Assembly: GCA_021463195.1 (NCBI GenBank)
Contig: JAJTXZ010000032.1
Coordinates: 1 to 47,826, forward strand
Length of the DNA stretch: 47,826 bases
Reading direction: 5' to 3'
Source: Anaerolineae bacterium
Lineage (GTDB): Bacteria; Chloroflexota; Anaerolineae; UBA4142; SHND01
This document shows, one piece after another, positions 18,565 to 38,190 of this stretch. Every line of letters starts with the position of its first letter. The stretch's first letter is position 1. The position numbers were made by a program, and so were the translations under genes. Below the pieces are notes generated by a model. That model worked only from the letters and a program-made list of their open reading frames with translations, searched no databases and was not told the DNA's origin.

Positions 18565-18635
18565 GTAGGAGCAAAGCATTGACAGGCACATCCGCGTATC
18601 GAACCGCAGCCGCAAATATCAATGCTTTGCCCTTA
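18565..18635. repeat. 72-bp palindromic element, copy A
   Basis: The left arm GTAGGAGCAAAGCATTGACA and right arm TCAATGCTTTGCCCTTA are inverted repeats around a divergent centre. The right end supplies the TAA stop of hsdR (18633-18635). One of five related copies within 6.7 kb. Confidence 0.8.
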
Positions 18636-21600
18636 TGTTTTTGTTTTGCGATAGCGTTCAAACAACCAATCAAATAATTGTTTGGCGAATTCAGGGTCGT
18701 CGGTGACCTGTTTGTAAAATTTGAAATCGGAATCAATGATTTCTTGCAGATGGTCGGTGGCAACGTGGTCAAAGGTGAGGCGCGCATTGTCGGGGGTGTT
18801 GATTTGGACGCTGGCGTTGAGCGCGGGGTCGGCGGCGAGTTTCGTTTCCAAATCTTGAATCGAGCGCAGCGCCTGCGCGCCGAGCTGCGCGCCGAAACGG
18901 TCATTCAGTTCCTTGATAATTTGCGACAGCGGTTCGATTTCTTCGGGATTGGAAACGGCGACGCCTTTTGGCGCGGCGGGGTCGAGTTCGGTGACGCCGC
19001 GCGCGAGTTTGATTTTGCCGCTCGAGGTTTGTTGCACGCGGTACGATTCCATGTCAATGTTTTTTTGAATTTCAACCGGCAGTTGTTCGCGTTTGATGGG
19101 CAGCTTGCGTAACAACAATCGTCCGAACACATACAAGCGTTCGAGGTCGGCGTCAACGAACGTGATGACTTGGGAGAGGAACGCATAGAGCCGCACGTAA
19201 TCTTGCAAGGTGCTGCGAAAGCCGACGCGTTCGTCATCGCTTGCTTGCGTGTAACGCGCGACGGTGGGCGCGAGCGCGGCGTGCAATTTGTCTTGCGTCG
19301 CTTTGGGGTCAAAAAAAATGTTGGCGAATTGATTTACGTCCGCGCTCGTGAAAAAACGATAATCGGCGAGGCGCGTTTCCAAATCGTACAACAAATTCGG
19401 GTCAGTCGCTTCTTTGAGCAGCAAGCGGTCATAGTACGGCTCGAACCCTTTTTGAATGTCGTCGGGTTCATTCGCAAAATCCAAAACGAGCGTGCCGTCT
19501 TTAGCGGGATGCACGCGATTGAGACGCGATAAAGTTTGAACGGCGTGCAAGCCGCGCAATACTTTATCAACGTACATGGCATATAGCAGCGGTTGGTCAA
19601 AGCCCGTTTGAAATTTTTCCGCGACGATGAGCAGTCGAAATTCGTCTTGATTGAAAAATTGCGCGGTCTGTTTTTCGCCGATGCTTATGCCCGCCGCGCG
19701 CGTGTTCATTTCCGTTTCCGTGTACAACAAACCGTCGTCGGGATCCTTGACCGTTCCCGAAAACGCGACGAGCGCTTGAAAATCGCAGCCGCGTTCGCGC
19801 AAAATTTTATCCACCGCGAGTTTGTAGCGCACGGCGTGCAAGCGCGAACGCGTCACAATCATCGCTTTGGCTTGACCGCCAATGCGCGGCGCGACGTGTT
19901 CGACAAAATGTTCCACCATGATGGCGGCTTTTTGCGCGATGGTGGATTCGTGCAGTTCGACAAACGAACGCAGCAAATACGTCGCTTTGCGGCGGTCATA
20001 GCGCGGGTCGGCGGCGACGCGTTTCAGCAAACTCCAATACGCTTTGTAGGTCGTGTAATTTTCCAAGACATCGAGAATAAAATTTTCCTCAATCGCTTGG
20101 CGCATACTGTACAAACTGAACGGCGCGTATTCGCCGCCGAGTTGTTTCACGCCAAAGAGTTCGAGCGTTTGCGGTTTCGGCGTCGCGGTGAACGCGAAAT
20201 AACTCACGTTCGGCAGCGGTCCGCGCTTTTTGATTTCCGCAATCACGCGGTCCTCGTAATCGGGTTCCTCGCCCATTTCTTGCGCTTCGGCTTCCGCCAA
20301 TGTTTTGGGCGCCAGCACCGCTTGCACTTGGGCGTTCGCTTCGCCGCCTTGCGACGAGTGCGCTTCGTCAATGATGACGGCGAAACGATTGATGGAAAAC
20401 ATTTGCATCTCGCGCGCAATGACGGGAAATTTTTGCAGTGTGGTGACGATAATTTTTTTGCCCGCCGCGAGCGCGTCTTGTAATTGCCTCGAAGTTTGGT
20501 CAATGTTTTCGACGATGCCGAGCGTTTGCTCGAATTGGCGCACGGTGCGTTGCAGTTGACGGTCCAGCACGCGGCGGTCAGTGATGACGATGACGGAATC
20601 GAAGACGTTTTGATTGTCTGCGTTGTGCAAATGCGTGAGTTGATGCGCGAGCCACGCAATCGAATTGCTCTTGCCGCTGCCCGCGCTGTGCTGAATCAAA
20701 TAACGCTGTCCCGCGCCGCGCGTCCGCGCATCGGCGAGCAGACGGCGCACGGTGTCGAGTTGATGATAGCGCGGGAAAATGAGCGCGCGTTTGTTGGTTT
20801 TGTTGCCGTCGTCGTCCTCTGCTTGAATCTCTTGGACAAAATTTTGCGCGAGGTCGAGCAAACTGTCGCGCGCCCAAATTTGTTCGTACAAATACGCGGT
20901 GGCGAAACCGCGCCACGAAGGCGGATTGCCCGCGCCGTTTTGATTGCCTTGGTTGAACGGGAGAAAACGCGTGTGCGCGCCTTGCAAATGCGTCGTCATG
21001 TACGCCAAATCGGGGTCGAGCGCGAAATGCGCGAGGACGCGCCCGAACGCAAACAACGGTTCGCGCGGGTCGCGCGTCGTTTTGTATTGTTTAATCGCGT
21101 CTTGGACGGTTTGACCGGTGAGGGGATTTTTTAATTCGGCGGTGACGATGGGCAAGCCGTTGAGAAAGAGTACGAGGTCGAGCGAGTTTTCATTTTTGAC
21201 GCTGTATTTGAGTTGGCGAATTTCGGAAAAGAGATTGCCGAGATATAGTTTTTGCGATTGTTCGTTCAAACCGGACGAAGGGCGAAAATAGGCGAGCCGA
21301 AAGCGGCTGCCGTTCGCTTTTAACCCATTCCGCAACACATCGAGCGTGCCGCGCGCTTGAATCTGCTGCGCGAGCCGTTGAAATAATTTGTCGTGCGCGT
21401 CCTTGCCGTGCTGTTTTTTGAATTTGTCCCATTCTTGCGGCTGCGTGGCATAAATAAAATCCAACACGTCTTGGCGAATCAAACACAACTGTTTGTCGTA
21501 CTGTTCGGGTTCGCGTTTGTGATAGCCGCCGGGGATAAATTCATGCGCGGCGTTTGACGTTTCGCGCGTGACCTGCACCGCCGCGCGCCCCGCATCGGGT

Positions 21601-21662
21601 CCGCCGAGCAAGAGGGTCGCCTCGAGCGTGGCTTCAAAATTTTTTTCGGAAATGTCTATCAT
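18633..21662 (-). CDS. hsdR: Type I restriction enzyme, R (endonuclease/translocase) subunit
   Basis: HsdR cuts DNA after ATP-driven translocation in complex with HsdM and HsdS. The 1009-residue length fits the family. An N-terminal PD-(D/E)xK nuclease domain has Asp162 (LDLVLF) and Glu176-x-Lys178 (VTAELKNP). The SF2 translocase has Walker A HSAGSGKSN (326-334), DEAH at 432-435 (IIDEAHSSQGG), motif III YFAFTATPKP and late motifs (VAEKFQTGFDQPLLYAMYVDK, QTLSRLNRVHPAKDG). The C-terminal helical domain that contacts the methylase is intact, ending FERYRKTKT. The stop lies in palindromic element A, and element B lies 19 bp upstream of the start. It is separated from hsdS by a RAYT transposase gene, and no close promoter was seen. 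Confidence 0.95.
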   Translation of the reverse strand: MIDISEKNFEATLEATLLLGGPDAGRAAVQVTRETSNAAHEFIPGGYHKREPEQYDKQLCLIRQDVLDFIYATQPQEWDKFKKQHGKDAHDKLFQRLAQQIQARGTLDVLRNGLKANGSRFRLAYFRPSSGLNEQSQKLYLGNLFSEIRQLKYSVKNENSLDLVLFLNGLPIVTAELKNPLTGQTVQDAIKQYKTTRDPREPLFAFGRVLAHFALDPDLAYMTTHLQGAHTRFLPFNQGNQNGAGNPPSWRGFATAYLYEQIWARDSLLDLAQNFVQEIQAEDDDGNKTNKRALIFPRYHQLDTVRRLLADARTRGAGQRYLIQHSAGSGKSNSIAWLAHQLTHLHNADNQNVFDSVIVITDRRVLDRQLQRTVRQFEQTLGIVENIDQTSRQLQDALAAGKKIIVTTLQKFPVIAREMQMFSINRFAVIIDEAHSSQGGEANAQVQAVLAPKTLAEAEAQEMGEEPDYEDRVIAEIKKRGPLPNVSYFAFTATPKPQTLELFGVKQLGGEYAPFSLYSMRQAIEENFILDVLENYTTYKAYWSLLKRVAADPRYDRRKATYLLRSFVELHESTIAQKAAIMVEHFVEHVAPRIGGQAKAMIVTRSRLHAVRYKLAVDKILRERGCDFQALVAFSGTVKDPDDGLLYTETEMNTRAAGISIGEKQTAQFFNQDEFRLLIVAEKFQTGFDQPLLYAMYVDKVLRGLHAVQTLSRLNRVHPAKDGTLVLDFANEPDDIQKGFEPYYDRLLLKEATDPNLLYDLETRLADYRFFTSADVNQFANIFFDPKATQDKLHAALAPTVARYTQASDDERVGFRSTLQDYVRLYAFLSQVITFVDADLERLYVFGRLLLRKLPIKREQLPVEIQKNIDMESYRVQQTSSGKIKLARGVTELDPAAPKGVAVSNPEEIEPLSQIIKELNDRFGAQLGAQALRSIQDLETKLAADPALNASVQINTPDNARLTFDHVATDHLQEIIDSDFKFYKQVTDDPEFAKQLFDWLFERYRKTKT

Positions 21663-21681: not shown

Positions 21682-21753
21682 GTAGGGGCAAAGCATTGAC
21701 ATTCGCGGATGCGACTCGATGCGCGTACGTTCCTGTCAATGCTTTGCCCCTAC
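21682..21753. repeat. 72-bp palindromic element, copy B
   Basis: Perfect 20-bp terminal inverted repeats GTAGGGGCAAAGCATTGACA (21682-21701) and its complement (21734-21753) enclose a 32-bp centre. It lies between hsdR and the RAYT transposase gene. Confidence 0.9.
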
Positions 21754-21779: not shown

Positions 21780-22379
21780 TTATACGTGATAATTTTCATC
21801 GGTTTGCCAATTCATTGGATTATTTTCAATGTATACGCGAATGCGTTCCAACGCGGCATCGTTACGAATGATGTGTTCGTAATAATTGCGCTGCCAAATC
21901 GGACGGTCCGCGTGCGTGGGAATTTTGTGAATGTGCCGCGCGGTGATGGATTTGAAATTTTGGACAATCGCGTTCAATGAACGCGGTTGTGTGCCATGCG
22001 GCGTATTTTGTAGGGGCAAAGCATTGGCATTGGCATCCGCGTCGGATAAACCAGCCGCGTCTGCCAATGCTTTGCCCCTACGCGCGTCGTCGGCGATACG
22101 CGCGGGGTTGTGGACAATGACGACAATGCCGTGAATATGATTCGGCATGATGACAAACGCATCCAATTCGATGTTCCGAAAATGCGTGGCTAATTGTGTC
22201 CAACAGGTTATCACAATTTCGCCGATTTGGTTGGTTTGCATTTCGCCGTTGGCGATGTCGCCGAAAAGACATTCGCGTTGGTGCGCGCACAAGGTGATGA
22301 AATACGCGCCTTGTTGGGTGTAATCGTATCCTTTGAGCCGAATCGAACGGCGATGATGTTTTTGCGGGTCATATTTCAT
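21780..22379 (-). CDS. REP-associated tyrosine transposase (RAYT, Y1 family) with in-frame insertion
   Basis: The 199-residue protein is a TnpA-REP-type HUH transposase. It has GYDYTQQGAYFITLCAHQRECLFG near the N-terminus, the HUH motif in FVIMPNHIHGIVVIV, and the catalytic tyrosine region PIWQRNYYEHIIRN near the C-terminus. Single-copy RAYTs act on short palindromic repeats. After the HUH motif, 24 residues (RRGKALADAAGLSDADANANALPL) are encoded by palindromic element C, inserted without breaking the frame. The open frame upstream to 22472 is element D translated in the same way, so the true start is ATG 22379 (MKYDPQKHHRRS). Whether the interrupted enzyme is still active is unclear, because the insert lies between the HUH and tyrosine motifs. 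Confidence 0.85.
   Translation of the reverse strand: MKYDPQKHHRRSIRLKGYDYTQQGAYFITLCAHQRECLFGDIANGEMQTNQIGEIVITCWTQLATHFRNIELDAFVIMPNHIHGIVVIVHNPARIADDARRGKALADAAGLSDADANANALPLQNTPHGTQPRSLNAIVQNFKSITARHIHKIPTHADRPIWQRNYYEHIIRNDAALERIRVYIENNPMNWQTDENYHV
22010..22081. repeat. 72-bp palindromic element, copy C, inside the RAYT gene
   Basis: Terminal repeats GTAGGGGCAAAGCATTGGCA (22010-22029) and its exact complement (22062-22081) flank a centre with GTCGGATAAACC. The length of exactly 72 bp preserves the reading frame of the transposase and adds 24 codons. Confidence 0.92.
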
Positions 22380-22390
22380 GATTGTTATAT

Positions 22391-22462
22391 GTAGGGGCAA
22401 AGCATTGGCATTCGCGTTCGCGTCGGATAAACCATTCGCGTCTGCCAATGCTTTGCCCCTAC
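22391..22462. repeat. 72-bp palindromic element, copy D
   Basis: It has the same 20-bp arms as copy C (22391-22410 and 22443-22462) and a nearly identical centre. It sits between the RAYT start codon and the hsdS stop codon. Confidence 0.92.
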
Positions 22463-22468
22463 GGACGA

Positions 22469-23743
22469 TCAACCATCCCGCACATCCACCTTACCTGTCA
22501 CCGCCGCCGCAATCAACGCGCCGCGATATTCGCGCAATCGTTCAATGGCGTCTTGGATTTTTGCGACAAGCGCGTCGTATTTTGATGTTTCACGCTCGAT
22601 GTGATTTGTAATTTCCATCTGCTCTTTCAAGGGTGGTAATGTTACCAGAATTTCTTTGAGATGATACGCTTTAATTCCAATGGCGGTCGAACCTGTTGCG
22701 CGGCTCCATAATTCACCTTGTCCTGCAAGCGATGTCAAAAAGTACTGAAGAAAATCATTCGTTATTTGAGATTTGTCCGCTTTTAACAAAATGATTCGTT
22801 GGGCAAGCGCAATTCTTGTGTCTGTAATTTGGGCGGTTTCCCCCAACGGAGCTTCAGTTGTCACAAGTACATCGCCAAGTTCTGGCAATCCGCGAATCAT
22901 CCAATCATCATAATCTTGCTCGCGAAGATATTCTTGTGATAATTCAAAATCAATTCGTCCATTCTTGACATTTCTTGCTGTAACCAATGGTATTCCAGCA
23001 GAAACCTTTTCAGGAGTTGCGCCACGATAATCAACGAATTTATTGATTACACGACGGAGTGGACAAAGCCCCCACCCCTCCGGCACCTCCCCCACCCATT
23101 CCACGCCCGAATCTTTCATCGGCGCGTTGGCGTCCAACCCTTTGGTCACGGCGCGGCTGATGAGCGCGGTGCGTTTTTCTTGCAAGCGTTCGATGAGTTG
23201 TTCTTTTTTGGCGATGAGTGCGTCGAGGCGCGCGGTCTCACGGTCGAGGAACGCGGCGATGGCGTGTTGTTCGGGGAGAAGGGGCACGGGAATGAAATTG
23301 CCATAAGCGACATCGCGACTCAATCCGGGTATCGCACTATCTTGAGACGCTTGGTCAAGATTAAGCAAACGTAAAACATGAGCAAGCCATTTTAAATCCG
23401 CAGAGGTGTTGCGCGAATCTATAAAATATGTTGTATCAATCGCAAAGACAGGAACTTCTGAAAAATTTATCTTGCCAAACGAACCTTTGCGCCCAATCAC
23501 AATGACAGGAGCAAACGTATTTGCCACGCTATGAACATCAACTTGTCCATTTGAACCATATACAGGAACATTGCCTCGTTCACGTTCCTCTGCCGCAAGC
23601 GAATCGCCATAAATGAAACGCGCGACACTTTTTAACCGCCTCACCTCCCAATGCGCGGGGATGTCGCCGAGCCAGGGGACGTTGGAGGGTTTGTAGGCGG
23701 GGTAGGGTTGCCAACGTCGGGTGTTTTGAATCATGGAATTCAT
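22469..23743 (-). CDS. hsdS: Type I restriction enzyme, S (specificity) subunit
   Basis: HsdS supplies DNA sequence recognition for the methylase and nuclease. The 424-residue protein has two target recognition domains, each followed by a conserved helical spacer: LPEQHAIAAFLDRETARLDALIAKKEQLIERLQEKRTALI after the first (its motif split here only for citation) and LKEQMEITNHIERETSKYDALVAKI after the second. The start of the first domain (YPAYKPSNVPWLGDIPAHWEVRRLK) and of the second (GVEWVGEVPEGWGL) are typical. The frame is open from a TTG at 23764; ATG 23743 or ATG 23734 is more likely. It is followed by palindromic element D 6 bp after the stop. The partner hsdM lies 1.5 kb away beyond an opposite-strand gene pair, so hsdS has its own promoter in 23744-23992. 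Confidence 0.94.
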   Translation of the reverse strand: MNSMIQNTRRWQPYPAYKPSNVPWLGDIPAHWEVRRLKSVARFIYGDSLAAEERERGNVPVYGSNGQVDVHSVANTFAPVIVIGRKGSFGKINFSEVPVFAIDTTYFIDSRNTSADLKWLAHVLRLLNLDQASQDSAIPGLSRDVAYGNFIPVPLLPEQHAIAAFLDRETARLDALIAKKEQLIERLQEKRTALISRAVTKGLDANAPMKDSGVEWVGEVPEGWGLCPLRRVINKFVDYRGATPEKVSAGIPLVTARNVKNGRIDFELSQEYLREQDYDDWMIRGLPELGDVLVTTEAPLGETAQITDTRIALAQRIILLKADKSQITNDFLQYFLTSLAGQGELWSRATGSTAIGIKAYHLKEILVTLPPLKEQMEITNHIERETSKYDALVAKIQDAIERLREYRGALIAAAVTGKVDVRDG

Positions 23744-23891
23744 GGGTAAAAATTGAGAATTCAAAAATAGCTCTTGACTTGGAACGGATGTTCTGTCATA
23801 ATTGCGTCAAATCGAACGCGCGTTCTGATGGAATGTTTTGTCCCCGCGCGCCGCTCCGCGCTACTATTTTCCTCGGTTGTTTCAATTCGCG

Positions 23892-24736: not shown

Positions 24737-25226
24737 ATCACCGCGCCTTTTTTAGTGGGACAGCTGCGTGTTCATTGCCTACATGACAAAAGAAGCGACG
24801 CGTATTTCGACGCTCGAATCCATTGTGGACGATATTGAAAACAGCGACGGCAAGAAAAAAATCGTCACATCGGAAATGTCTCAAGTCGAGGTCGCTTACA
24901 CGGCGTATGAAAAAACGACGCGTCAATTAGACGCGGCTTACGAGCAGATGCTGGACGATTTTTGGGCAGACGATTCCGTTGTCGAACTCGTCGAATTTCA
25001 CGAACAAATCGCCAAAGATGCGCGGATGCTTATTCGCGAGTCTATTCGCATGGGCATCAAAATTGTAAAACCATTGGATGCGATTCATCTTGCGACTGCA
25101 AAATGGATTGACGCCTCCGAGTTTCACACATACAACCTCCACCATTTTCAGCCCCTTCAAAATTTGGTCAAGTGTAAAATCTGCGAACCGTATATCGCGC
25201 AACCGCGTTTGATTGCGCCCGAGTAA
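24729..25226 (+). pseudogene. PIN-domain protein gene with in-frame amber codon
   Basis: The frame from ATG 24729 reads MAKSPRLF, then TAG (24753-24755), then WDSCVFIAYMTKEATR and continues to 25226. LWDSCVFIAYL-type sequence is the first strand of a PIN nuclease, with the first catalytic Asp in WDS. A single TTG-to-TAG change would explain the stop. The rest is a normal PIN domain: VTSEMSQVEVAY (second acidic residue), LDAIHLATAKW (third) and a C-terminal FHTYNLHHFQPL. Restarting at GTG 24768 would delete the first strand and its aspartate. The gene is therefore probably inactivated, unless the base is an error or the codon is read through. The start overlaps the preceding gene by 8 bp and the TAA stop lies in palindromic element E. 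Confidence 0.75.
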
Positions 25227-25294
25227 GAGCAAAGCGCTGACCGACGCGTTCGCGCATCGAGTCACATCCGCGAATGTCAATGCTTCGCCCCTAC
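25223..25294. repeat. 72-bp palindromic element, copy E
   Basis: Diverged arms GTAAGAGCAAAGCGCTGACC (25223-25242) and TGTCAATGCTTCGCCCCTAC (25275-25294) enclose a 32-bp centre. The left end supplies the TAA of the PIN gene and the right end the TAG of hsdM, so the element terminates both convergent reading frames. Confidence 0.8.
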
Positions 25295-27414: not shown

Positions 27415-27466
27415 CGGATTTCCAGACCCTAAGGGTTTTCGAAAACCCTTAGGGTCTGGAAATCCG
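27415..27466. repeat. 52-bp perfect palindrome
   Basis: CGGATTTCCAGACCCTAAGG (start) is followed by GTTTTC and then the exact reverse complement. The 26-bp arms meet without a loop at 27440/27441. It resembles the core of the palindromic elements near 29350 and 36481 and lies between the divergent hsdM and cysteine desulfurase promoters. Confidence 0.9.
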
Positions 27467-29321: not shown

Positions 29322-29503
29322 GTGAATTTCTGTTTGATCCAAGGTAAAAGACCCTTTGGGTTTTCGGAAACCCAAAGGGTCTGTCCTCTAAATCAAATCG
29401 GAAACTGGTCCAGAGTGAATTTCTGATGGGACCAGGGACAAACCTTTCGGGTTTCCGAAACCCGAAAGGTTTGTCCCTTCCATCGAATAGGAATTCGTTC
29501 TAA
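29322..29503. repeat. Two tandem copies of a 90-bp palindromic element (family 2)
   Basis: Each copy begins with a GTGAATTTCTG block, has a long hairpin in the middle, and ends with a block resembling the inverted start (AATCGGAAACTGGTC, AATAGGAATTCGTTC). The hairpins are GACCCTTTGGGTTT/AAACCCAAAGGGTC (29350-29381) and GGGACAAACCTTTCGGGTTT with its complement (29435-29477). Stem sequences differ but remain complementary. A third copy lies at 36450-36543. Confidence 0.8.
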
Positions 29504-30981: not shown

Positions 30982-31014
30982 GCTCGGAACAGATGCTCAA
31001 GTGAGGGGTAGATT

Positions 31015-33473
31015 GTTTCAAACCGCTTGCGCGAATTATTTCCTCTGTGACCCCAGCGCAAAACATTTTTACGCTCTATGAAAATTTGGTTTCAAACCGC
31101 TTGCGCGAATTATTTCCTCTGTGACTCGTGCTCCGCCTAATCTCCAGCAACAGGAGGAAGGTTTCAAACCGCTTGCGCGAATTATTTCCTCTGTGACACC
31201 GCCCGCCCTATGGTGGCTAGGCACAAGAAGTAAGTAAGTTTCAAACCGCTTGCGCGAATTATTTCCTCTGTGACCTGGCATTGGTGCTGGCGCTGAAGAA
31301 ACCCGTCAGTTTCAAACCGCTTGCGCGAATTATTTCCTCTGTGACCGAGCACGACAAGTGGTGGGAGGAATTTTGGTCTGTTTCAAACCGCTTGCGCGAA
31401 TTATTTCCTCTGTGACGGGGATAAGAATTATCCCTTCTACTTGCCGTTGAAGGTTTCAAACCGCTTGCGCGAATTATTTCCTCTGTGACGGGATCGGCGT
31501 GGGAATTTTCCTCCTCGCCGTTTTGTTTCAAACCGCTTGCGCGAATTATTTCCTCTGTGACGTCGAATTTGGCATGTACTGAAATGAGACTCAATACAGT
31601 TTCAAACCGCTTGCGCGAATTATTTCCTCTGTGACTTGACTCAACAGTACGCCCCTCTCGCCGGCTATTCGTTTCAAACCGCTTGCGCGAATTATTTCCT
31701 CTGTGACGTTGAAGACATTTATGTCGTGAAATATACAGGCGCTGGTTTCAAACCGCTTGCGCGAATTATTTCCTCTGTGACCGGTGACTGGCGGCTTTTA
31801 TAGCGTCGTTACCCAAGAAGTTTCAAACCGCTTGCGCGAATTATTTCCTCTGTGACCTCTTACCAAGAGACGGGAGTAGGTCCCATGAAAACGTTTCAAA
31901 CCGCTTGCGCGAATTATTTCCTCTGTGACCCGCCTCCCGCTTTGGGGGAGCTCCCGAACGTTGGGAGTTTCAAACCGCTTGCGCGAATTATTTCCTCTGT
32001 GACCCGCGCTAGGAGGGGCCAAAAAAATGCTGAAGAAACTGTTTCAAACCGCTTGCGCGAATTATTTCCTCTGTGACTGCCCTCGATGACACGGTGAAGT
32101 TTGCAGACGATGGTTTCAAACCGCTTGCGCGAATTATTTCCTCTGTGACTTATCATGACCGATTCGCTCAAAGCTTCGATGCCGAAAGTTTCAAACCGCT
32201 TGCGCGAATTATTTCCTCTGTGACACAGGGCGACGCCGAAGAGGCGCTCGTCCTGCTCGTAAGTTTCAAACCGCTTGCGCGAATTATTTCCTCTGTGACC
32301 TCCCTTGACAAATCCGCAAAAAAGCGATAATATCAAGTTTCAAACCGCTTGCGCGAATTATTTCCTCTGTGACATTTAGTGAGTCGTCACGCTCCCATTG
32401 ATATAACATGTTTCAAACCGCTTGCGCGAATTATTTCCTCTGTGACCGGCACGGCAGTGTCGCTCAAGCAAGCGGAATATCTGTTTCAAACCGCTTGCGC
32501 GAATTATTTCCTCTGTGACTCCGGAATTGCGGGTGCGGGTGGTGGCGTTGAACGAAGTTTCAAACCGCTTGCGCGAATTATTTCCTCTGTGACTTTTTGG
32601 AAATGGAATACACATGCCCAGAGTGTAAGTTTCAAACCGCTTGCGCGAATTATTTCCTCTGTGACGGGCCTCGGCCCACTCACTAATTCTGATCGTTGTG
32701 GTGTTTCAAACCGCTTGCGCGAATTATTTCCTCTGTGACTGGATTCAGGACATCATTGTCAATCTGCGAACAAGCGGTTTCAAACCGCTTGCGCGAATTA
32801 TTTCCTCTGTGACCGATACCCGCGCCGACGAGCGCGCCGACGAGCGCGCGTTTCAAACCGCTTGCGCGAATTATTTCCTCTGTGACCCGTGCATGGGATT
32901 TGGCATACCAGAAGCCAATAGAGTTTCAAACCGCTTGCGCGAATTATTTCCTCTGTGACGCCGCACGTCGTCGTCAACCATGACGAACGATTCGTGTTTC
33001 AAACCGCTTGCGCGAATTATTTCCTCTGTGACAACCCCTGTTCTATAAACGTATCTTCAATAAGCCAAGTTTCAAACCGCTTGCGCGAATTATTTCCTCT
33101 GTGACGTGAAAATTCCCAAGCGCGTTGCTATGACGCATTTGTTTCAAACCGCTTGCGCGAATTATTTCCTCTGTGACATAAAGAGGAAATAATTAAGCTG
33201 CTCAAATCGGCAAGTTTCAAACCGCTTGCGCGAATTATTTCCTCTGTGACAACGCGGCAAGCGGGCACAAACATTTTGCCGAATCAGGTTTCAAACCGCT
33301 TGCGCGAATTATTTCCTCTGTGACAGGTGAAATGCCCATGACGCTTAGCGCGCTCGCACAGGTTTCAAACCGCTTGCGCGAATTATTTCCTCTGTGACAG
33401 CGCAGCGCCGCAATCAAAGACCTGTCTCCAAACTCCGTTTCAAACCGCTTGCGCGAATTATTTCCTCTGTGAC
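31015..33473 (-). CRISPR. CRISPR array 1: 34 repeats, 33 spacers
   Basis: Thirty-four copies of a 37-bp repeat (plus strand begins GTTTCAAACCGCTTGCGCG and ends TTATTTCCTCTGTGAC) alternate with spacers of 34-40 bp. The repeats looked uniform on reading. The complement ends GGTTTGAAAC, giving a predicted 8-nt crRNA handle UUUGAAAC, and forms a CGC-GCAA-GCG hairpin just before it. A leader matching that of array 2 lies to the right, so transcription is leftward. Open frames through the array on either strand are repeat translations, not genes. No spacer matches another part of this window that I could see, except the repeat-complementary spacer at 33178-33213. Confidence 0.98.
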
Positions 33474-36449: not shown

Positions 36450-36543
36450 CTTGCGAATTCCTGTTTGGTTATGGGTAAAAGACCCTTTGGGTTTTCGGAA
36501 ACCCAAAGGGTCTGTCCCCTAAATCGAATCGGAAACTGGTCTA
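36450..36543. repeat. 90-bp palindromic element (family 2), third copy
   Basis: The hairpin GACCCTTTGGGTTT-TCGG-AAACCCAAAGGGTC (36481-36512) and flanks GAATTCCTGTTTGG and GAATCGGAAACTGGTC match the copy at 29322-29412. It sits between the membrane-protein and SAVED genes and its end contains the TAG stop of the membrane-protein gene. It might terminate or stabilise the transcript between them. Confidence 0.85.
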
Positions 36544-37124: not shown

Positions 37125-37160
37125 TGCGTTTTCCACTTTCCGCCTTCCACCTTCCGCCTT
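37125..37160. repeat. Heptamer repeat at the distal end of CRISPR array 2
   Basis: TTTTCCA, CTTTCCG, CCTTCCA, CCTTCCG and CCTTCAG units abut the degenerate terminal repeat of array 2. Confidence 0.6.
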
Positions 37161-38013
37161 CAGTCAAACCCCTTTCGGGAATCGCCCCTCTTTGAACTCC
37201 TCGGAGTTGCAGACGCAGCTTACCATGGAATACGGTCTTAAACCCCTTTCGGGAATCGCCCCTCTTTGAACCGAGGGGGGGTGGCACCTGATCGAACGTC
37301 CAAGTGTCGGTCTTAAACCCCTTTCGGGAATCGCCCCTCTTTGAACGCAAATGACCTCATTTTGCCAAGGAGGGCAAAATGAGTCTTAAACCCCTTTCGG
37401 GAATCGCCCCTCTTTGAACGGAGAGCATCCCGGACCACCGCGAATAGAGTCTACAGTCTTAAACCCCTTTCGGGAATCGCCCCTCTTTGAACTCAAAGTT
37501 CGCCAAATTTTATTTTAAAGAGGATCAAAGTCTTAAACCCCTTTCGGGAATCGCCCCTCTTTGAACGGCTCAAACTGTAATATCTCCCAGTATGGCACGA
37601 TTAAGTCTTAAACCCCTTTCGGGAATCGCCCCTCTTTGAACGTCCCCCCGCCCGCACCGCCCGTCGCGCAGAATATCGCGTCTTAAACCCCTTTCGGGAA
37701 TCGCCCCTCTTTGAACTCGGCCGTGCCCAAGTGGCTGGCCAGGACCAAAATTTTGTCTTAAACCCCTTTCGGGAATCGCCCCTCTTTGAACAAGTAATCT
37801 TTCCCGCGGGGCAAAAAGCCGCTTGCCGTCTTAAACCCCTTTCGGGAATCGCCCCTCTTTGAACTCTGTGGACCGTCCTTGGCGTTGGCGCTACTCTCGC
37901 ACTGTCTTAAACCCCTTTCGGGAATCGCCCCTCTTTGAACTGAAATGATAAAAAATTCACGAGGACGAATCGTCGTGTCTTAAACCCCTTTCGGGAATCG
38001 CCCCTCTTTGAAC
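37161..38013 (-). CRISPR. CRISPR array 2: 12 repeats, 11 spacers
   Basis: Twelve copies of a 37-bp repeat (plus strand begins GTCTTAAACCCCTTTCGGG and ends CGCCCCTCTTTGAAC) alternate with spacers of 36-39 bp. The leftmost copy (37161-37197) has a degraded 5' end (CAGTC in place of GTCTT), as expected for the leader-distal end. The complement ends GGTTTAAGAC (handle UUUAAGAC) after a CCC-GAAA-GGG hairpin. The spacer at 37347-37382 contains an inverted repeat CATTTTGCC/GGCAAAATG, perhaps taken from a terminator. Transcription is leftward. Confidence 0.98.
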
Positions 38014-38190
38014 ACCGTCATTAATCTTTTTAGAGAAACCCCATTTGCACTCTCCTTTTCATCCTAAAACACAATATTCTCACCACTATCGCCTCATTTC
38101 CTCTTTCAATTTCACTGCGGCGCTCCACCGCCATTTTCACCCGTAAACCTCTTTGACATATGGTGAAAACCCTGCCCGTTGTAATAAATG
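38014..38190 (-). promoter_or_regulatory. Leader of CRISPR array 2
   Basis: It carries the same blocks at the same distances as the leader of array 1: CATTAATCTTTTT next to the repeat, CGCCA, AAACCT, TTGACA and CCCTGCCCGTTGTAATAA. It lies directly after the cas6 gene, between it and the array. Confidence 0.8.

Follow-up and report, generated by a model that had tools for sequence, protein, structure and literature searches.

A palindromic GTAG repeat translated in frame within a RAYT gene and within housekeeping genes of an Anaerolineae bacterium

The closest described system is TnpA-REP subclass 2.4 (RAYT group 4), which is abundant in the Cyanobacteria and Bacteroidetes and scattered elsewhere, and for which Quentin et al. 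(2018, PMC6006769) described REPs inside the tnpA-REP genes themselves, generally between the HuH and Y motifs and with the frame undisrupted, calling them predominant. That RAYT genes of subclass 2.4 can contain REPs is therefore already known, and since these insertions of own REPs were published in 2018, so is the core finding reported here; what we add are numbers with controls, and in-frame copies in housekeeping genes of which the genome has a single copy. Di Nocera et al. (2013, PMC3733652), in the portion of their paper drawn on here, list REPs located within genes, compare these with the Rickettsia elements, and describe GTAG REPs as often supplying stop codons. Among the papers searched, none joined Chloroflexi with palindromic repeats within genes.

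The window, i.e. the whole 47,826-nucleotide stretch of DNA that was analysed, is contig C70 of a 4.72-Mb Anaerolineae assembly consisting of 143 contigs. A predicted RAYT gene encoding 199 aa is placed between hsdS and hsdR of a type I restriction operon, in a module with the order REP, RAYT containing a REP in frame, REP (copies D, C and A, respectively), and the features are as follows:

18565..18636, strand unassigned: copy B, REP at the 3' end of hsdR
18633..21662, minus strand: hsdR, type I restriction subunit
21682..21753, minus strand: copy A, 26 bp 3' of the RAYT stop codon, between RAYT and hsdR
21780..22379, minus strand: predicted RAYT / TnpA-REP gene, 199 aa plus stop; Y1_Tnp (PF01797), with REP_Tyr_transpos as the best NCBIfam model at a score under the curated cut-off
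21870..21896, minus strand: Trp/Tyr motif WQRNYYEHI, residues 162-170, with W162, Q163, Y166 and E168 nearly invariant
22010..22081, minus strand: copy C, 72-bp double-foot GTAG...CTAC REP, translated in frame in the RAYT gene (RRGKALADAAGLSDADANANALPL)
22128..22145, minus strand: HUH motif PNHIHG, residues 79-84, with P79, H81 and H83 present in all of 70 RAYTs compared
22391..22462, minus strand: copy D, 93% identical to copy C, between hsdS and RAYT, with the same frame open upstream of the start
22469..23764, minus strand: hsdS, type I restriction specificity subunit, in the host operon of the REP-RAYT module
25223..25294, strand unassigned: copy E, a diverged REP beyond hsdS

As the first-pass annotation had described, copy C is exactly 72 bp long and lies in frame in the minus-strand open reading frame, without stop codon or frameshift, between MPNHIHG (HUH) and WQRNYYEHI (Tyr), where it encodes the peptide given above. 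It is a GTAG...CTAC palindrome with perfect 20-bp arms that folds into a 20-bp stem (−29.6 kcal/mol as DNA, z = −8.5, with none of 200 shuffled sequences being equally stable), and a search of Rfam returned only sub-threshold hairpin matches. Its closest relative is copy D, in which the same frame is indeed open (RGKALADANGLSDANANANALPL); the idea that this represents a second coding copy had to be dropped, as copy D is located 5' of the conserved RAYT start MKYDPQKHHRRSIRLKGYDY, with the ATG 11 bp past the end of the element, and is therefore most likely part of a 5' untranslated region. The TAA stop codon of hsdR (18633-18636) is, as read from the sequence, provided by the terminus of copy B, in line with the stop codons supplied by GTAG-tagged REPs in the quoted portion of Di Nocera et al. 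(PMC3733652).

The window contains other repeats as well. There are two CRISPR-like arrays, one of about 34 repeats at 31012-33400 (GTTTCAAACCGCTTGCGCGAATTATTTCCTCTGTGAC) and one of 12 repeats at 37160-38033 (GTCTTAAACCCCTTTCGGGAATCGCCCCTCTTTGAAC), and a tandem array of approximately 23-bp units at 2243-2578 (AACGCGAAATCCGCGAACAAATT). Another palindrome family (AGACCCTTTGGGTTTTCGGAAACCCAAAGGGTCT and variants) is present at 27415-27466, 29349-29383 and 36480-36514, the first of these being a perfect inverted repeat with 26-bp arms.

The predicted RAYT protein scores over the cut-off for Y1_Tnp (PF01797) in Pfam, while its match to the best NCBIfam model, REP_Tyr_transpos (NF047646), is under the 80-bit cut-off at 67 bits (E = 1.4e-18). 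The NHxH and Trp-Gln...Tyr motifs are present and invariant or nearly so across 70 relatives, and the fold matches IS200/REP transposases including 4er8, the nearest REP-bound solved structure. The spacing between the HUH and Tyr motifs is 77 aa, compared to 37-130 aa (median 70) in the relatives. In the AlphaFold2 model the loop (beta3-alphaC) is bounded by E81-88 and H135-150; residues 92-108 are modelled as a helix, and the pLDDT, which exceeds 90 in the core, falls to about 55 in residues 111-130 with its minimum at 118-125, so that the insert is poorly ordered in the model. The shared features, namely the Y1/HUH domain with its motifs, the large insertion between HUH and Y, and the flanking and in-frame double-foot REPs, make the predicted enzyme a probable member of the RAYTs of TnpA-REP subclass 2.4. 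Our locus resembles that subclass (PMC6006769) both in the Y1 HUH enzyme with its expanded beta3-alphaC loop and in the GTAG/CTAC double-foot REPs which flank the gene and sit in frame between HUH and Y; unlike in that report, the genome is from the Chloroflexota (Anaerolineae), the element is long at 72 bp, the same family is found in frame in housekeeping genes, and counts are given with controls.

Matches to the copy C arm in the 4.72-Mb genome numbered 34 in forward and 35 in reverse orientation, versus 3 and 3 for a reversed control. Pairing of arms gave 29 full elements, with 72 bp as the commonest length. A covariance model based on 27 of these found the family at about 36 places in the genome, as well as many elements in other species of the genus. 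When coding status was judged one element at a time, most copies were intergenic and five were in coding sequence backed by protein families; elements on contigs C58, C63 and C123 also lie in long open frames, which, given the high GC content of the genome, were discounted as spurious or upstream frames. The family thus has the traits of the GTAG-tagged REPs as given in the quoted portion of Di Nocera et al. (PMC3733652), i.e. a GTAG end, palindromic structure, multiple copies, and a mostly intergenic location beside genes with some copies inside open reading frames. It is presumably recognised and cleaved by its RAYT.

These data bear on whether the 24 residues belong to the normal structure of the protein, with the palindrome in the DNA being incidental. 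The helix modelled at residues 92-108 would fit this, as would the fact that close homologues all have some extra loop sequence. Comparison with uninterrupted RAYT homologues, proposed in the first-pass annotation, did identify insert-free proteins, with loops of 37-46 aa, so that the 24 residues are not present in all homologues. As the insert also belongs to a family of about 36 copies, with the same sequence occurring intergenically, matches flanking DNA, varies between relatives and is modelled with low confidence at residues 111-130, the structural reading is largely refuted and we regard it as hardly credible.

Besides the RAYT, four conserved proteins in this genome carry an in-frame element: RlmD, YchF, RlmI and hydantoinase B (HyuB). 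In RlmD it separates the first cysteine of RCPHF from CGGC, these being cluster ligands in E. coli RumA, and in YchF it adjoins the NTDE motif. RlmD and YchF are both the only match over the respective cut-off in the genome, and insert-free orthologues were found for YchF in four congeners (84-90% identical) and for RlmD in three (G002, G004 and G005). In congener G002 the element is also in frame in a xanthine-dehydrogenase-type protein; an HsdS-like N terminus in the same genome (G002:C111, without a Pfam match) and an RnpA-like N terminus in G005 (G005:C325) were omitted as unproven. RlmD, YchF, RlmI and HyuB are not among the hosts of GTAG-tagged REPs quoted here from Di Nocera et al. (PMC3733652).

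The likeness to Rickettsia palindromic elements (RPEs), which had been noted together with the in-frame insertion itself, is borne out by these four further host proteins and the insert-free congeneric YchF and RlmD. In both cases a short palindromic repeat is present in frame in unrelated conserved proteins and is apparently tolerated; the element described here differs in phylum, in its GTAG termini and in being located in and around a RAYT, whereas to our knowledge no transposase is associated with the RPEs. Because of its phylum and termini, which rather than a sequence comparison set it apart, we do not class it as an RPE.

In RlmI a 73-bp element is located at one shared position in genomes G000 and G001, with the G003 RlmI lacking it. 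Within the arms of this element, all 13 codons for the same residue are identical between the two genes, versus 66% in the remainder of the gene, which is suggestive, although given the few codons involved it could be caused by hairpin selection, gene conversion or repeated insertion alike.

The RlmD and RlmI loops gather several repeat families in frame. The G005 RlmI (L290) has an unrelated palindrome with approximately 20-bp arms (GAAAATTCAAATTCGATTTC...) in frame near the position of the GTAG element in G000 and G001, the G000 RlmI (L170) also contains a repeat-like stretch (PPVSNLQSPIFNLQFPVSNLQSPI), and the loop between the cysteines of the G001 RlmD (L286) contains a different repeat peptide in three tandem copies, together with VTEPALSVSKGHPS.

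We expanded the comparison to 106 distinct RAYTs from many phyla, the sources being 60 relatives, 396 genomes belonging to the class and a scan of named genomes; since similarity to the query governed the sampling, the fractions apply to relatives of this protein and not to RAYTs at large, and the positions of the gene starts are approximate. Of the 106 loops, 54 contained a strict double-foot GTAG palindrome, versus one each of the 106 N-terminal and 106 C-terminal parts, with 0.15 expected from shuffled loops. The loop DNA matched the flanks of its own gene in 54 of 104 loci, compared to 1.6% of foreign pairs, and such matches were much rarer outside the loop (6/106 in the N half, 4/106 in the C half). 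They fall steeply with distance, with 112 of 184 located within 150 bp. The density of double-foot palindromes was 4.8/kb in the loops, 1.6 in the adjoining 100 bp, 0.08 in the rest of the gene and 0.02 beyond 1.5 kb, and when single-foot hairpins were included these values became 6.4, 2.8, 0.25 and 0.2/kb, respectively. The HUH-Tyr loop of RAYTs is a recurrent niche for GTAG palindromes.

The motif GTAGG.GC occurs in these loops 56 times in phase 0, 18 times in phase 1 and never in the phase in which its TAG is read. The commonest length of the loop palindromes is 28-29 bp, which rules out a frame-preserving length as the general cause; as they are not multiples of three, the frame is maintained by selection on the whole insertion. 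Plotted on the RAYT tree, presence or absence of the palindrome requires at least 26 changes, compared to a mean of 35 with shuffled labels, which indicates turnover plus some inheritance.

Taken with the own REPs already reported in subclass 2.4 genes, the dense loop means that the RAYT in the window is no isolated accident. We consider it probable that RAYT-mobilised REPs insert locally and that in-frame copies survive in exposed loops, through a tolerance like that of the RPEs. Acting on single-stranded DNA, the RAYT would cut and join REPs with a marked bias towards nearby DNA, and copies would for this reason land around and within its own gene. Insertions in conserved parts, those shifting the frame and those with the TAG of GTAG in frame would be purged, and those in the exposed, poorly ordered loop would survive and be translated as about 24 presumably harmless residues; the same filter could account for the copies that are in frame in RlmD, YchF, RlmI and hydantoinase B. 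Movement of these REPs by the RAYT, mostly to nearby sites, is our proposal for what is a predicted enzyme.

A second RAYT in the same genome, on contig C143, has GTAGAGACGCAAGATTTTGCGTCTCTAC inserted at the corresponding loop, likewise in frame. With up to three mismatches allowed, this palindrome has three copies in the 4.72-Mb genome, located upstream of, inside and downstream of the C143 RAYT, and congener G003 shows the same three-copy layout with an element in frame in its RAYT. The arrangement is thus common to both full-length RAYTs found in the genome and one in G003. With all three copies at the C143 RAYT, random spill of an abundant repeat cannot explain them, while local enzyme action or the arrival of a three-REP module as a whole can.

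This congeneric G003 RAYT with its in-frame element, L212 (G003:C161:6634-7314), shows HLQ where the HUH motif would stand and an apparent second partial element in its loop, and is possibly inactive. Such a gene would be expected if the RAYT were a decaying pseudogene in which the insert persists for want of counter-selection, as would the broken or split RAYT matches seen in some genomes. For the RAYT in the window we consider this very unlikely, as its frame is full length with intact HUH, Trp and Tyr motifs, many intact relatives have in-frame inserts, and the single-copy YchF and RlmD bear the same element in frame.

The loop palindromes are 2-4 times denser than those in the adjoining 100 bp, both with and without single-foot hairpins, which exceeds what local spill-over plus tolerance predicts. 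Also counting against that explanation, no empty allele of this RAYT was found, its nearest homologue (57% identical) being insert-bearing too. The in-gene REP could possibly be a selected part of the module instead, a reading we hold tentatively, either as a master or cis copy linking enzyme and substrate (for example in horizontal transfer) and shielded from decay by being coding, or as a hairpin by which the enzyme governs its own mRNA or gene. The C143 family, with every genomic copy at or in its RAYT, fits this, as does the like arrangement of the two full-length RAYTs and that of G003, while the RlmI arms suggest that in-gene palindromes can outlast synonymous drift, although so few codons could also reflect gene conversion. 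Such a role is harder to reconcile with about half of the RAYTs lacking a strict double-foot palindrome in the loop, with the number of presence/absence changes on the tree, and with the occurrence of the same element, also in frame, in proteins for which such a function would not be expected.

One form of this reading, which we regard as rather unlikely, is that the RAYT-internal copy is a protected master, kept intact and translatable by coding selection, that seeds the other copies; intergenic copies would then keep the same frame open, and a REP family could consist of just three copies. The RG frame is open in 94% of 52 distinct 72-bp elements versus 85% after column-wise shuffling (9 or 10 of 500 shuffles reaching 94%), and both strands are open in 88% versus 74% (3 of 500 reaching 88%). 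These 52 elements are those in the loci at hand, mostly intergenic, and their shared ancestry may inflate the excess. An earlier version of the test with shuffled centres was discarded, as it overstated the effect because the copies share a consensus; the column-wise shuffle leaves a smaller excess, which is modest, yet seen even in intergenic copies, and which would be consistent with a coding master copy as their ancestor. The earlier description of copy C as tolerated selfish DNA therefore survives in that RPE-like tolerance is the favoured explanation, but mere tolerance is not the sole reading, as the loop is denser in palindromes than its immediate flanks.

With these data, the 2018 remark on REPs in RAYT genes has now been counted against controls. 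The genus offers in-frame palindromic insertions alongside the enzyme that presumably moves them, and alleles of sole-copy genes that lack the insert in congeners can serve as controls. This makes it testable whether translated palindromes, be they the RPEs of Rickettsia or intragenic REPs, are merely tolerated or are kept.
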